DNA of 64,000 nucleotides, taken from the NCBI RefSeq assembly GCF_900105655.1, contig NZ_LT629787.1, positions 2,852,001 to 2,916,000 on the forward strand. The letters are read 5' to 3'. This document shows, in pieces, positions 3,747 to 62,430 of this stretch. Each line of letters begins with the position of its first letter. The first letter of the stretch is position 1. The notes under the pieces are model-generated. The model saw only the letters and a list, made by a program, of their open reading frames with translations, ran no database searches and was not told the DNA's origin. A program made the position numbers and the translations under genes. This DNA is from Halopseudomonas salegens (lineage in GTDB: Bacteria; Pseudomonadota; Gammaproteobacteria; Pseudomonadales; Pseudomonadaceae).

Positions 3747-5216
3747 ATGTCGACACCCGATCTCGATTTCCAACCCGTTACCACCGCCAGCGCAGCGGTC
3801 GACCGTCTGGCCGAGCTGTACCAATTTGCCACCGAGGCACTGGAACAGGCCCTGCACGATTATTTGCGCCAGCGCAGCCAGCCCGACGCCGAACAACTCC
3901 GCCAATTCTGCTACCCCGAACTCCGTCTGGACTACCATGCCCAGGGCGAAGCCCCCAGCACCGTGCGCGCCTTCGCCCGCGTACAGTTAGCCGGCACCTA
4001 CAGCCTGACCGTGACCCATCCACAGGCGTTTCGCAAGTATCTGCTGGAACAGCTTGAACCCCTGCTGCGCGACTTCAGCATTGAACTCAGCGTCGGCCTG
4101 AGCGACCAGCCAATCCCATATCCCTATGTGCTGCCCCACGATGAACTGGCCCGCTCAGGGATTACCGCCGGCGAATTGTCCCGCGTTTTTGCCGGCACCG
4201 ACCTCGCCGCCATCACCGACCGCTCCGCCGATGGTCAACACAGCTGGGAAAACCTCGACACCCTGCCGCTGGCCCTGTTCGACGCCGCCCGCGTCGACTT
4301 CTCCCTGCGCCGCCTGGTGCATTACACCGGCAGCGACTGGCAGCACGTACAACCCTGGATACTGCTGACCAACTACCACCGCTATGTGGATCAGTTCATC
4401 CGTTACAGCATGGACATGCTGCTCAGCGAATCACGCTTTGAACGCCTGGTGTTGCCCGGCAACGTCATGCTTGAACGCGGCATGGCCGAAGACGACATGC
4501 AGGCCGTGGTCGACAGCGTCGCCTGGCACCGCTTCCAGATGCCCGCCTATCATCTGCTGGCTGCCGATGGCGACGGCATTACCCTGGTCAATATCGGCGT
4601 CGGCCCCTCCAATGCCAAGAACATCACCGACCATCTGGCCGTACTGCGTCCACACTGCTGGCTGATGATTGGCCACTGCGGTGGCCTGCGCCAGTCACAA
4701 ACCATCGGCGACTATGTACTCGCCCACGCCTACATGCGCCGCGATGGCATCCTCGACCGGGTACTGCCGCCCAATATTCCCTTGCCCGCACTGGCAGAGG
4801 TGCAGCAGGCGCTGCAAGTCGCCGCTGCAGAGGTCACCGGCGATCAGGGCGATGCGCTGAAACGCCGCCTGCGCACCGGCACGGTATTGACCTACGACGA
4901 TCGCAACTGGGAACTGCGCTGGGCGCAGGAACGGCCACTGATCAATCAGGCCCGGGCGATTGCCGTAGATATGGAAAGCGGCACCATCGCCGCCCAGGGC
5001 TACCGCTTCCGCGTGCCCTACGGCACCCTGCTCTGCGTCTCCGACAAACCCCTGCACAGTGAAATCAAACTGCCCGGCGCCGCCGGCGCCTTCTACCAAC
5101 GCGCCGTCACCCAGCACCTGCATATCGGCATCGCTGCGCTGGACTTGCTGCGCAGCCAGCTGAATGCATTGCACTCACGCAAATTGCGCAGCTTTGATGA
5201 GCCGCCGTTTAGGTAA
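3747..5216 (+). CDS. amn: AMP nucleosidase
   Basis: Hydrolyses AMP to adenine and ribose 5-phosphate, helping to set the adenylate pool. The 489-aa length matches bacterial Amn. It has the N-terminal Amn-specific domain and a C-terminal nucleoside-phosphorylase-like fold with the stretches VNIGVGPSNAKNITDHLAVL, MIGHCGGLRQSQTIGDYVLA, and the nucleotide-site segment AIAVDMESGTIAAQGYRFRV. The MSTPDLDFQP start follows a modest SD. It diverges from argA with about 110 bases between starts. The same window also carries a second, different AMP-breaking route (the AMP-phosphorylase-type gene near 44 kb). Confidence 0.93.
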   Translation: MSTPDLDFQPVTTASAAVDRLAELYQFATEALEQALHDYLRQRSQPDAEQLRQFCYPELRLDYHAQGEAPSTVRAFARVQLAGTYSLTVTHPQAFRKYLLEQLEPLLRDFSIELSVGLSDQPIPYPYVLPHDELARSGITAGELSRVFAGTDLAAITDRSADGQHSWENLDTLPLALFDAARVDFSLRRLVHYTGSDWQHVQPWILLTNYHRYVDQFIRYSMDMLLSESRFERLVLPGNVMLERGMAEDDMQAVVDSVAWHRFQMPAYHLLAADGDGITLVNIGVGPSNAKNITDHLAVLRPHCWLMIGHCGGLRQSQTIGDYVLAHAYMRRDGILDRVLPPNIPLPALAEVQQALQVAAAEVTGDQGDALKRRLRTGTVLTYDDRNWELRWAQERPLINQARAIAVDMESGTIAAQGYRFRVPYGTLLCVSDKPLHSEIKLPGAAGAFYQRAVTQHLHIGIAALDLLRSQLNALHSRKLRSFDEPPFR

Positions 5217-5281: not shown

Positions 5282-5389
5282 GGGGTGTTGCCAGCCACCT
5301 GCCCCAGACCGTCGATGTACAGGGATGTACATCGACGAGCCCCAGGGAAGGCTTGTAGCGTGTCTGGGGCAGGTGGCTGGCAATGCCCC
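5282..5389 (+). repeat. Structured intergenic element, copy A (long variable stem with conserved GGA-loop hairpins)
   Basis: This element fills the gap between convergent amn and argE. Outer arms 5288-5309 and 5362-5383 pair perfectly for 22 bp; two G-U pairs and four more G-C pairs extend this to 5282/5389. Inside is an 11-bp hairpin (5310-5320 with 5327-5337) with loop AGGGAU, then a second small hairpin (5338-5353; AGCC/GGCT stem) with GGGA in its loop, then the conserved GCGTGTC that enters the right arm. Two other copies lie at 29958-30066 and 30170-30272. The inner loop region reads GUACAGGGAUGU as RNA. Orientation is assigned by the consensus order arm, CGTC-hairpin, AGC...GCGTGTC, arm. 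Confidence 0.85.
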
Positions 5390-5420: not shown

Positions 5421-6569
5421 CTACTTCAAACAAAACTCCCGAATCAACCCACGCAAAATCTCCACCGTCGGATTGATCCGCTCCATCTCCAGAAACTCAT
5501 CCGGCTGGTGCGCCTGGTCAATATCACCCGGCCCCAGAATCAACGTCTGCATACCAATCTGATTCAGATAGGGCCCCTCAGTCGCAAAAGCCACACTACC
5601 GGCTGTATGCCCAGTCAAACGCTCACAGGCCGCCACCAAAGGCGCATCGGCAGCAGTATCCAACGGTGGCACGCCAGGGAACAGCGGCGTCAGCTGGATA
5701 TCCACCGCCCTCTCCGCCGCAATCAACGCCAGACGCTGGCGAATCTGAGCACGCAACTCATCCGGATCCATCCCCGGCAACGGCCGAATATCAAACTCCA
5801 GCGCACACTTGGCGCAAATCCGGTTCGGATTGTCGCCGCCATGAATGCACCCCAGATTCAACGTCGGCGTCGGCACCCCGAATAACGGATTATTCCAGCG
5901 CTTCTGCCACTCGGTACGCAAGGCCATCAGATCACTGATCACATAATGCATCGCCTCCAGCGCATTGTTGCCCAGCGCCGGATCGGATGAATGCCCCGCC
6001 TGGCCGATAATATCCACCCGCTCCATCATGATGCCCTTGTGCACCCGGATCGGCTTCAGCCCGGTCGGCTCACCGATGACCGCATGCCTTGCCTTCGGCT
6101 GCCCACTGGCGACCAGCGCCCGCGCACCACTCATGGTGCTTTCCTCATCCGCCGTAGCAAGAATAATCAGGGGCTGCTTGAAAGGTTGATCCAGATAGCC
6201 TTTAACCGCCTCGATAATCAGCGGAAAAAAGCCCTTCATATCGCAGCTTCCAAGCCCGTACCAGCGGCCATCCGCCTCGGTCAGCTTCATCGGGTCATGC
6301 TGCCAACGCTCCGGATTGCAGGGAACGGTATCCGTATGCCCCGCCATCACCAGCCCACCGGGGCCACTGCCATAGGTCGCAATCAGATTGGCCTTGCCCG
6401 GATGGTCGGCAATCGGCTGGATATCACAGGCAAAGCCCAGATCGCCGAGCCAATCCGCCAACAAATGCACCACGCCCAGGTTGGACTGGTCCCAGTCCGG
6501 CTGGGTACAGCTGATCGACGGACTTTGCAGCAACTCGGCAAACTGGGTTTTCAGATCAGGCACAGCCAT
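5421..6569 (-). CDS. argE: Acetylornithine deacetylase
   Basis: A 382-aa M20-family metallopeptidase that removes the acetyl group from N-acetylornithine to give ornithine. Visible M20 zinc-site elements are MAGHTDTVPC (first ligand), GSCDMKGFFP (bridging Asp) and ATADEESTMSG (catalytic Glu pair), plus the lid-domain VHKGIMMERVDIIGQAGHSS. The length is typical. The start MAVPDLKTQF is preceded by GGAG at good spacing. It sits near argA, as it does in Pseudomonas, with amn inserted between. In pseudomonads argJ usually supplies the cyclic acetyl-recycling route, so argE may be partly redundant; that is inference. Confidence 0.92.
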   Translation of the reverse strand: MAVPDLKTQFAELLQSPSISCTQPDWDQSNLGVVHLLADWLGDLGFACDIQPIADHPGKANLIATYGSGPGGLVMAGHTDTVPCNPERWQHDPMKLTEADGRWYGLGSCDMKGFFPLIIEAVKGYLDQPFKQPLIILATADEESTMSGARALVASGQPKARHAVIGEPTGLKPIRVHKGIMMERVDIIGQAGHSSDPALGNNALEAMHYVISDLMALRTEWQKRWNNPLFGVPTPTLNLGCIHGGDNPNRICAKCALEFDIRPLPGMDPDELRAQIRQRLALIAAERAVDIQLTPLFPGVPPLDTAADAPLVAACERLTGHTAGSVAFATEGPYLNQIGMQTLILGPGDIDQAHQPDEFLEMERINPTVEILRGLIREFCLK

Positions 6570-29250: not shown

Positions 29251-29904
29251 GTGGCGCTTGCTATTTTCGATCTCGACAACACCCTGCTAGGCGGTGACAG
29301 CGATCATCTGTGGGGCGAGTTCATTGTTGAACAACGGATTGTCGATCCGGCTGTCTACAAGGAGCGCAATGATGCTTTCTTCAATGATTACCTGGCCGGC
29401 CGGCTGGATATTCAGATCTATCTGAGTTTCTGTCTGCAGCCCCTGGCGGAGCACTCCGCCGAGCAACTGGTAGCCTGGCATGCGCAATTCATGCGCGAGA
29501 AAATCGAGCCCATCATGCTGCCGGCGGCACGTGAACTGATCCGGAAACACCGCGATGCCGGCGATACGCTGATGATCATTACCGCGACCAACCGCTTCAT
29601 CACCGCTCCGATTGCCAGGGCGTTCGGTATTGATATCCTGCTGGCAACAGAGTGCGAAAAGGCTGACGGCCGCTATACCGGTCACAGCACCGACATCCCC
29701 TGCTTTCGCGACGGCAAGGTCACGCGTCTGGACCGCTGGATGCTGGAGAATAGCCAGTCTCTGGATGACAGCTGGTTCTACAGTGACTCGATCAACGACC
29801 TGCCCCTGCTCTCCCTGGTCGACCACCCCGTCGCCGTCGACCCCGACGACAAACTCCGCGCCCACGCTGAAGCCAATGGTTGGCAGGTGTTGAGTTTGCG
29901 TTGA
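29251..29904 (+). CDS. HAD-IB family hydrolase (SerB-like phosphatase)
   Basis: A 217-aa HAD-superfamily phosphatase. Motif I is IFDLDNTLLGGDSD, motif II is the Thr in MIITATNRFITAP, and motifs III/IV are in KVTRLDRW and FYSDSINDLPLLSLVDHPVA. It belongs to the subfamily IB group near SerB and phosphatidylglycerophosphatase-like enzymes; the substrate is unresolved. It starts at GTG 29251, with GGAG 6 bases upstream. It is divergent from rppH-ptsP and convergent toward rlmI. Its 3' flank holds two copies of the structured repeat. Confidence 0.88.
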   Translation: MALAIFDLDNTLLGGDSDHLWGEFIVEQRIVDPAVYKERNDAFFNDYLAGRLDIQIYLSFCLQPLAEHSAEQLVAWHAQFMREKIEPIMLPAARELIRKHRDAGDTLMIITATNRFITAPIARAFGIDILLATECEKADGRYTGHSTDIPCFRDGKVTRLDRWMLENSQSLDDSWFYSDSINDLPLLSLVDHPVAVDPDDKLRAHAEANGWQVLSLR

Positions 29905-29957: not shown

Positions 29958-30066
29958 GGCGGCATCAGGGCGGGCCCTGGCTGGACACGCGGTGAATACG
30001 TCCCTGTAGCTCGTCTGCGGCGTCCCTGCCGCAGACGGTCCAGCCAGGGCCCGCCCCGACACCGCC
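29958..30066 (-). repeat. Structured intergenic element, copy B
   Basis: Read on the minus strand this has the same plan as copies A and C. Outer arms 29968-29986 and 30038-30056 pair perfectly for 19 bp; a further GGCGG/CCGCC stretch pairs after a few mismatches. The inner 10-bp hairpin (30012-30021 with 30028-30037) has minus-strand loop AGGGAC. A short second hairpin (29997-30008) has stem UAC/GUA and also loop AGGGAC. The conserved GCGTGTC enters the outer arm. The outer-arm sequence is unrelated to that of copies A and C, and the middle inner-stem bases differ from C with compensating changes. Confidence 0.85.
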
Positions 30067-30169
30067 TTGCCAGATTTGTGCGCGCCGCACCCAAACCCAA
30101 GTAGAAACCAGAGCATAACTCCGCGCCTACCTAAAGGTTTAGAAAATCGGCACACAAAAACGATCCGGG

Positions 30170-30272
30170 TATGGCGGGGTTGCCCACTACGGGACCGTCG
30201 ATGGCAGGGACGCCATCGACGAGCTACATGGACGTACTTGCCGCGTGTCCTGTAGTGGGCAACCCCGCCATA
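30170..30272 (+). repeat. Structured intergenic element, copy C
   Basis: Outer arms 30170-30195 and 30247-30272 pair over 26 bp with a single G-U. The inner 10-bp hairpin (30196-30205 with 30212-30221) has loop AGGGAC. The second hairpin (30225-30236) has stem UAC/GUA and loop AUGGAC. It is followed by CTTGCCGCGT and the outer arm. An additional 10-base inverted pair (30142-30151 with 30293-30302) lies further out. Copies B and C, in opposite orientation, occupy most of the 446-base gap between the HAD gene and rlmI; nothing else is evident in that gap. Confidence 0.85.
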
Positions 30273-30350
30273 GCGAGCTCACAAATCAAAACGCCGATTT
30301 TCAGCCGGGCAACGACCGGCCGCTTTAAACAGAGGACGACGGAACAAGAG

Positions 30351-31544
30351 CTAAACCGGCAACACCCGACAAAACAGCGACTTGATATAACCTGTTTCCG
30401 GAATAGCCGGATGCAGCGGGTGATCCGGGCCCTGGAAGCCGCGTTCGGTAATGACCAGGTGGCGGTCGAGATGACGCGCTGAGGCATTGAGGATGTCGCG
30501 CAGGGTATTTTCTTCCAGGTGCATGGAGCAGGAGGCGGACACCAGAATGCCGTCCTTGTTGAGCAAGCGCATGGCCTGCTCGTTCAGGCGCCGGTAAGCC
30601 TGCTCACCGTTGCGCTTGTCCTTGCGTTTCTTGATGAAGGCAGGCGGGTCAGCAATGATCACGTCGAACTTCTCATCGGCCTGTTTCAGCTCGCGCAGGG
30701 CGTCCAGCACATTGCCCTCAACCACCGCCATCCTGTCTGCCACACCATTGAGCGCCGCATTGTGCTCCACCAGATCCAGTGCGGGTGCCGAACTGTCCAC
30801 GCACATCACCTCGGAGGCACCAAAGACCGCCGCCTGCACACCCCAGCCACCGATGTAGCTGAACAGATCCAGCACCCGCTTGCCCTCAACATAAGGCGCC
30901 AGACGTGCACGGTTCATGCGGTGATCGTAGAACCAGCCGGTTTTCTGCCCGCTCCAGACTGGCGCCTCAAAGCGTACACCATTCTCTTCCAGCGCTACCC
31001 GTTCCGGCACCTCACCATAAGCGGCTTCAACATAGCTGGGCAGATCTTCTTGTGCTCGCGCACCGCTATCGTTCTTGAACAGAATGCCCACCGGCTTCAG
31101 CACCTGTACCAAAGCCTCAGTGATCTCGGCCCGCACCCGCTCCATCCCCGGCGTCGCAATCTGCACCACCAGATAGTCGCCAAAACGATCGACGACCAGG
31201 CCGGGTAGCAGATCGGCATCGCCATAGACCAAGCGATAGAACGGCTGCGGGAATAAACGCTCGCGCAGTGCCAGCGCCACCTTGAAGCGGTGCACCAGCA
31301 ACGGCTTGTCCAGCGGGTGACGCACATCGCGGTTGTGCACGCGGGCGCAGATCAGGTTGTTCGGGCTCATGCAGGCCAGACCCAGCGGTTTGCCGCTGGC
31401 GGTTTCAACCTGCACTTCCTGACCGGCCGTGAAAGCCGTCAGCGGCGTCTGGGCAATGTCGACCTCATTGCTGAACACCCACAGGTGGCCTCCTTTGAGA
31501 CGGCGATCGCTGTTGGCTTTCAAACGCAAACTGGGCAAGCTCAT
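30351..31544 (-). CDS. rlmI: 23S rRNA (cytosine1962-C5)-methyltransferase
   Basis: A 397-aa SAM-dependent m5C methyltransferase. It has an N-terminal PUA-like RNA-binding domain (about 1-75, GGHLWVFSNEVD) and a Rossmann core with VLDLFSYIGGWGVQAAVFGA and DVIIADPPAFIKKRKD. The C-terminal catalytic Cys is in LVSASCSMHLEE. The length and the start (GGAG at 6 bases) fit RlmI. It is divergent from the HDOD gene. Confidence 0.93.
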   Translation of the reverse strand: MSLPSLRLKANSDRRLKGGHLWVFSNEVDIAQTPLTAFTAGQEVQVETASGKPLGLACMSPNNLICARVHNRDVRHPLDKPLLVHRFKVALALRERLFPQPFYRLVYGDADLLPGLVVDRFGDYLVVQIATPGMERVRAEITEALVQVLKPVGILFKNDSGARAQEDLPSYVEAAYGEVPERVALEENGVRFEAPVWSGQKTGWFYDHRMNRARLAPYVEGKRVLDLFSYIGGWGVQAAVFGASEVMCVDSSAPALDLVEHNAALNGVADRMAVVEGNVLDALRELKQADEKFDVIIADPPAFIKKRKDKRNGEQAYRRLNEQAMRLLNKDGILVSASCSMHLEENTLRDILNASARHLDRHLVITERGFQGPDHPLHPAIPETGYIKSLFCRVLPV

Positions 31545-62206: not shown

Positions 62207-62248
62207 TGCGCACATGAATCCATGGTGAAAATGCTGTACAGTAACGCT

Positions 62249-62424
62249 TGTCCCTGGGGTGTTTGCCAGTCGGAGATGTCCCTGAGCCGATACTTCTGTA
62301 CCAGGGGGCTGCTTGCCACAGCCAGTGTGCATGTCCGCATGACGGAAAGCCTTAGGCCTGGCGGCATCCTCCGCCTTGAACTTTCGGGTTCAAGGGCTAA
62401 CCCGACAGCGGCATTCCCGGGGAC
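62249..62424 (+). ncRNA. ssrS: 6S RNA
   Basis: About 176 nt between zapA and the 5-formyl-THF cyclo-ligase gene, the conserved 6S position. The 5' end CTTGTCCCTGGGGTGTTTGC pairs with the 3' end GCATTCCCGGGGA to close the rod. The region GTTCAAGGGCTAACCCGACA with GCCTTGAACTTTCGGG is the typical gammaproteobacterial 3' part, with a large internal bulge where sigma70 RNA polymerase binds. A TACAGT -10-like box at 62237-62242 fits a start near 62249. Exact ends are estimates. Confidence 0.9.
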
Positions 62425-62430
62425 TCTTTC

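Follow-up and report, generated by a model that had tools for sequence, protein, structure and literature searches.

A dispersed, strongly structured intergenic element of Gammaproteobacteria with paired hexaloops resembling CsrA/RsmA sites

What keeps the loops of an intergenic hairpin element constant while its stems vary from copy to copy? The question arises from a 64,000-nucleotide stretch of the Halopseudomonas salegens genome (NZ_LT629787.1, positions 2,852,001 to 2,916,000; hereafter the window, in which position 1 is the first letter), where an initial annotation had described three such copies and suggested either a functional RNA or a mobile hairpin whose arms are renewed at each site. 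All three are present, with their parts as described save for the corrections given below. Copy 1 (29958–30066, minus strand; matched by our covariance model at 29963–30061) has outer stem arms at 29958–29986 and 30038–30066, hairpin 1 at 30012–30037 with the hexaloop AGGGAC at 30022–30027 and hairpin 2 at 29997–30008 with AGGGAC at 30000–30005, all read on the minus strand. Copy 2 (30170–30272, plus strand; model match 30172–30270) has arms at 30170–30195 and 30247–30272, hairpin 1 at 30196–30221 (AGGGAC at 30206–30211) and hairpin 2 at 30225–30236 (ATGGAC at 30228–30233). Copy 3 (5282–5389, plus strand; model match 5286–5385) has arms at 5282–5309 and 5362–5389, hairpin 1 at 5310–5337 (AGGGAT at 5321–5326) and hairpin 2 within the approximate limits 5341–5352 (AGGGAA at 5344–5349).

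Convergent gene pairs flank all three copies. Copies 1 and 2 lie between genes at 29251–29904 (plus), which by eye we take to encode a HAD-type hydrolase, and 30351–31544 (minus), presumably a SAM-dependent RNA methyltransferase, again by eye; copy 3 lies between 3747–5216 (plus) and 5421–6569 (minus), which by eye appear to be AMP nucleosidase-like and ArgE-like, respectively. The window contains the core AGGGAY-N-GACGAGC three times, where 0.05 occurrences would be expected. Whichever strand is taken, the three copies fold much better than dinucleotide shuffles, with z between −9.3 and −12.6.

The shared plan is a three-way junction, in which an outer stem of 24–28 bp encloses two hairpins, each with an ANGGAN hexaloop closed by a C-G pair. 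Hairpin 2 had been reported as a short GGA-loop hairpin; the hairpin exists, but its loop is a hexaloop of the same kind as that of hairpin 1. Searching the genome with the pattern CGTC-N-AGGGAY-N-GACGAGC gave nine matches, and the reversed control none. These nine, aligned without hand fitting (alignment A1), were used to build a covariance model, R1. Across the 24-bp outer stem and both hairpins of A1, 99.4% of cells are paired and 26 of 40 pairs show two-sided changes, a level reached by none of 500 shuffles; the covariation score is 0.724, whereas shuffling gives 0.226 and slid versions do not exceed 0.135. Larger alignments were fitted to the model, which biases the pairing figures in favour of the structure: A2 (127 rows) has 98.0% of cells paired, two-sided changes at 32 of 40 pairs and 1,347 two-sided cells, while A4 (48 rows from outside the genus) has 96.6% of cells paired and two-sided changes at 38 of 40 pairs, including all 24 of the outer stem, although one of five measures for A4 (further pair types) was matched by 18 of 500 shuffles. 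The earlier proposal that inner and outer stems are compensated, with selection acting on shape, is borne out by this strong covariation relative to shuffles.

Where three copies had been noted, R1 finds 41 matches in this genome at E ≤ 1, at least 37 of them at E < 1e-6; the copy count is a lower bound, as 150 of 450 first-look candidates were scored. Other matches are two opposite-strand shadows and two sites of degraded or hybrid appearance, at 569807 and 59288. The outer stems had been called unrelated in sequence, and they do differ among the three window copies, but over 151 copies (those of this genome and its relatives analysed below) a weak consensus emerges, with the majority bases AGCGGTGTTGCCGGCCACCTGTTCCG ahead of GAC. 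The best-preserved copies in this genome reach about 174 bp and are bounded on the outside by a further 15-bp inverted repeat, GGAAACACTGATTAA, the two arms of a given copy agreeing with each other as well; such MITE-like terminal arms, with 0–2 mismatches, were found in seven copies of this genome, where they were checked. By eye, copy 2 may retain a relic of this repeat, with a left arm AAAATCGGC at 30143–30151 and a right arm GCCGATTTT at 30293–30301 (plus strand).

Variants of the plan occur. A long hairpin-1 arm with further loops is present in five of 37 copies in this genome (L038 and L043–L046; 148–150 bp), and short derivatives that lack the inner part are also found. By eye, four of the long-arm copies (L043, L044, L046 and L038) add two hairpins to the plan; the loop of one is an ANGGAN-type GGA loop, that of the other AGGA. 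At two loci (L336, 2813–2889; L338, 1233–1310), hairpins 1 and 2 have merged into one with a single GGA loop, as though a deletion had removed the sequence between their loops. Two copies often lie close together in opposite orientations, the minus-strand copy preceding the plus-strand one along the contig, as at window positions 29958–30272, L013/L015 and L029/L040.

The initial annotation had recognised no named repeat family, and searches gave none. At gathering thresholds no Rfam family matches the element in the window or at 20 loci, among them TwoAYGGAY (RF01731); a search of the whole genome with RF01731 also gave no match, and its control likewise matched nowhere. A loose-threshold Rfam search of two central copies returned 15 matches, mostly microRNA precursors and all far under gathering scores, which were rejected. 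The sole Rfam match at gathering in the window is a 6S RNA at 62248–62427. A literature search on such repeats and on CsrA sites in repeats turned up no description of the family. Four papers were set aside: as far as their available text goes, three concern individual small RNAs of the CsrA/Rsm pathway and no repeats (PMC9788540, PMC5864184, PMC2375449), and one concerns TAACTGA repeats that its authors deem unlikely CsrA sites (PMC4679880). The family is real and strongly structured, and no description of it was found in the literature searched.

What had been overlooked is that the loops equal the recognition motif of CsrA/RsmA. In a high-affinity Csr/Rsm site an ANGGAX hexaloop sits immediately on top of a stem, and RsmZ stem-loops have a C-G closing pair with N and X looped out and variable (PMC4005645); the element has the same fixed and free positions as the motif given there, with at least two C-G-closed ANGGAN hexaloops per copy. 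Read from the model alignments and not via a GGA pattern, an exact C[ANGGAN]G is present at loop 1 in 113 and at loop 2 in 125 of the 127 A2 rows (one of which is an opposite-strand shadow); the corresponding counts are 33 and 39 of 43 in A3 (four shadows) and 40 and 45 of 48 in A4 (one shadow, two truncated copies). Most copies have G as the second base of the loop. In many copies hairpin 2 reads UACAGGGAYGUA, very near the SELEX consensus RUACARGGAUGU as quoted in PMC7937890.

Given this exact motif match, our best reading, somewhat more probable than not, is that the dispersed elements present paired putative CsrA/RsmA sites on RNA. The folded form would then be RNA, its two hexaloops bound by CsrA/RsmA, probably by both faces of one dimer, so that each transcribed copy might tether or titrate the regulator; long-arm variants would contribute additional GGA loops. 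The family may have spread as a non-autonomous repeat, with copies diverging in place largely by compensated stem substitution while the loops stayed fixed. More tentatively, the copies could together form a dispersed, genome-wide CsrA/RsmA sponge across Gammaproteobacteria, a mobile-like repeat that sets the level of free regulator and is possibly coupled to replication through the strand bias described below; a paired docking RNA would be kept foldable at each site regardless of the direction of neighbouring genes. If the loops do bind CsrA/RsmA, many gammaproteobacteria would hold tens of unannotated sites for a global regulator, and models of its titration would change.

Known systems offer partial parallels. 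The sponge RNAs CsrB/CsrC and RsmX/Y/Z resemble the element in having several stem-loops with ANGGA loops, but they come from a handful of dedicated genes, each equipped with a promoter and a terminator, whereas the element is dispersed in dozens of copies, has an outer stem of 24–28 bp and shows no promoter or U-tract that we could find. TwoAYGGAY RNA likewise consists of two hairpins with GGA loops; it differs from the element, in which the second loop base is mostly G and the architecture is another one, and its Rfam model is unmatched. That motif appears in PMC2864571. A possible precedent comes from Pseudomonas putida KT2440, where the three proteins RsmA, RsmE and RsmI bind RNAs in vivo, some of them from intergenic sequences linked to ISPpu8; these regions are described as insertion sites or remnants, or as adjoining ISPpu8, and one is called long palindromic (PMC7937890). 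ISPpu8 is listed as an IS4-family element in PMC3056050.

Which strand, if either, is maintained in foldable form can be read from the wobble pairs. A G-U pair on the GGA strand is an A-C pair on the other, so that mutation alone should yield the two equally. In the 24 outer pairs of the 37 copies from this genome, which are all its matches at E < 1e-6, there are 832 Watson-Crick, 44 G-U, six A-C and six other cells; these copies, like those of the next set, were found with a covariance model whose scoring favours G-U over A-C. A wider set of 151 copies includes 115 from relatives, at the best loci listed, and was filtered so that hairpin 2 had a GGA and no fewer than 13 of 18 pairs were standard; because of that filter, the hairpin-2 loops of this set are not used as evidence. 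Over 19 pairs it gives 2,725 Watson-Crick, 98 G-U, 10 A-C and 36 other cells; this count omits two positions where wobble is common, and with them the ratio of G-U to A-C is 192:13.

The same asymmetry is seen between orthologous copies, for which a flank comparison gave 109 same-orientation pairs over 27 sites. Differences between close orthologous copies comprise 129 changes from one Watson-Crick pair to another, 61 between Watson-Crick and G-U, three between Watson-Crick and A-C and 14 with other mismatches; orthologous pairs share sites and hence are not independent, and when each site position is counted once over the 27 sites there are 82 G-U, seven A-C and 29 other. By gene context, the ratio of Watson-Crick/G-U to Watson-Crick/A-C differences is 38:1 in antisense, 10:2 in convergent and 10:0 in sense copies. 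Of 144 copies, 131 also fold more stably as RNA from the GGA strand than from its complement, with a mean difference of 7 kcal/mol. Since G-U far exceeds A-C in the stems, foldability is preserved on the GGA strand, a conclusion we regard as well supported. The excess favours a functional single-stranded form with GGA loops.

The element is widespread. R1 matches 33 of 58 relatives (own genome included), namely 28 of 37 members of the genus and five of 21 from the order's other families; 62 of 369 genomes in an even draw of the class (own included), belonging to 56 of 272 genera; and 15 of 299 in a draw of the phylum, every one of the same class. Candidates scored per genome numbered 70 for relatives, 11 for the class draw and 13 for the phylum draw; with so few, copy counts are minima and some apparent negatives may be positive. 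Scanning named genomes with a sequence pattern found 50 stretches, including Halopseudomonas species, Pseudomonas saliphila, P. profundi, Marinobacter, Haliea and Exilibacterium. A metagenome bin titled Klebsiella pneumoniae (L299), possibly misnamed, has two copies. Tandem arrays also occur, with three copies at 365-bp spacing in Pseudomonas saliphila (L282, 5741–6503) and five at about 228-bp spacing in another genome (G599:C1, near 94420–95430). The core of copy 2 had no blastn match at E 0.01 in plasmid and phage collections, and the core pattern no exact match among viral contigs.

Of 67 element-positive genomes, 62 have csrA (PF02599), and so do 54 of the 55 of good quality; of 80 element-negative genomes, looked up among the 307 negatives of the class draw, 65 have it (59 of 69 good ones). 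Among good genomes the one-sided p is 0.012; this weak association may reflect genome size, small genomes perhaps being without both. The five positives in which csrA was not matched include G253, a genome that is 98% complete. The H. salegens genome has two CsrA matches, the stronger at 2406150. The second (G000:C1:1038677–1038814; 52 bits) is divergent and CsrA-like.

Could the element instead be mobile DNA, its GGA loops a feature of a DNA hairpin that a transposase recognises in the folded single strand, with the likeness to CsrA sites due to chance? Here REP/REPIN elements and the ends of IS200/IS605 serve as the comparison. REP/REPIN elements and MITEs are dispersed intergenic palindromes, as the element is; it departs from them in its three-way junction, in its two GGA hexaloops, in showing no consistent target duplication and in occurring at times in genomes with no Y1 transposase match. 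Besides dispersal, indifference to gene orientation and outermost inverted repeats, this explanation can draw on the fact that DNA, too, tolerates G-T pairs better than A-C, and on a bias relative to replication that an RNA role does not predict: in the genus Halopseudomonas the GGA strand runs against the fork. Sampled GC skew places the origin at about 3.41 Mb, where the sample contains four DnaA boxes, and the terminus at about 1.45 Mb. On this basis the GGA strand lies against the fork in 27 of 39 copies in this genome and with it in 12 (p 0.024), or in 26 and 11 of those at E < 1e-6 (p 0.020). For relatives, 77 of 115 copies have a negative local skew on the GGA strand, and the mean is negative in each of the four gene contexts. 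Counted by independent site cluster, the skew is negative in 57 of 75 (p 7e-6), and likewise in 26 of 43 clusters without copies from the H. salegens genome (mean −0.029, p 0.003).

The bias is absent in distant families, however, where skew is negative in 20 of 40 copies outside the genus, and a lagging-strand template would expose the complement, which folds worse (as RNA). Y1 transposases occur in 52 of 60 good element-positive genomes (60 of 72 of all positives), which leaves eight good positives with no Y1 match, including G405 with at least six elements and G296 with at least 11. Nine inverted-repeat pairs inspected by eye showed no consistent target-site duplication, although L141 has TTAA on both sides. 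Mobile DNA also gives no reason for an exact ANGGAN hexaloop with two free positions, and we think it an unlikely explanation.

The way the copies sit among genes bears on the paired-site reading. In this genome, 39 copies divide into 15 convergent, 10 sense, nine antisense and five divergent; the 151 copies divide into 47 sense, 51 antisense, 36 convergent and 15 divergent, with two at contig edges, and none lies within a called gene (the calls being those of a codon model trained on the window). For comparison, window gaps of at least 60 nt comprise 17 codirectional, 10 divergent and three convergent (a small sample). The median distance is 54 nt to gene 3′ ends and 105 nt to 5′ ends. There was no excess of sigma-70 promoters upstream (eight of 149 regions, against 13 after shuffling), nor in two further scans. 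In the 18 nt past the stem on the GGA strand, none of the 151 copies has a four-T run (15 of 151 in the next stretch), so that neither a sigma-70 consensus promoter nor the U-tract of a sponge gene of the CsrB/RsmZ type was found. A cis role in 3′UTRs was rejected, copies being equally sense and antisense to codirectional genes; a simple 3′UTR or small-RNA role is disfavoured because the element is orientation-neutral and neither promoter nor U-tract was found.

This context bears on a further possibility, namely that the elements are terminators or 3′-end stabilisers of flanking mRNAs, bidirectional because the stem is palindromic. They are intergenic and nearer to 3′ than to 5′ gene ends, the window copies all lie between convergent genes, and the other strand has a T run past the stem in 20 of 151 copies (seven in the next stretch). 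Yet the U-tract that defines an intrinsic terminator does not follow the GGA strand, and a terminator would neither conserve the loops nor favour G-U in antisense copies as seen here; we hold this role to be distinctly improbable.

How the copies change in place was followed at orthologous sites, fetched through the genes at 30351–31544 (copies 1 and 2) and 5421–6569 (copy 3). R1 matches at the site of the window pair in nine of 30 fetched loci and at the 5282 site in three of 30 (own included). In the two nearest relatives (G025 and G028) both elements of the window pair are present, with compensated differences in their stems. Some orthologous stems are identical; others differ at nearly half of their pairs while the core remains alike. 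The idea that arms are renewed at each site does not fit these observations, since many orthologous stems differ by single compensated changes around a like core and the arms share a weak consensus, but a residual part survives in that some orthologous sites do appear entirely replaced, as in L038/L227, whose flanks are 94% identical.

Compensation as a by-product of replication, with template switching between palindrome arms copying mutations from one to the other and no selection on folding, would suit the predominance of two-sided changes in close orthologues (129 against 78 others) and the near-equality of double transversions (57) and double transitions (50)—G-U intermediates are not required, double transversions being as frequent—but it predicts equal G-U and A-C where 61:3 and 44:6 are seen and leaves the conserved loops unaccounted for, so that we give it very little credence. 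Pure arm copying is disfavoured by the wobble asymmetry, and arm copying may add to the rate of compensation. The family also offers an unusually clean case of stem evolution, in which strand-specific wobble separates selection on folding from mechanical copying of arms.

In one farther relative a different kind of repeat occupies the orthologous site, by eye. Several others (loci L091, L092, L097, L088 and L090) have there a second subtype with the same plan and another core, its hairpins like UAACAGGGAUGUUA and UCCAGGGAUGGA and its tail UUCACGGCGUC. At the site orthologous to window 5282–5389, the element bearing the GCCAGCCACCTG stem has in G025 (L109) the opposite orientation to that in the H. 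salegens genome.
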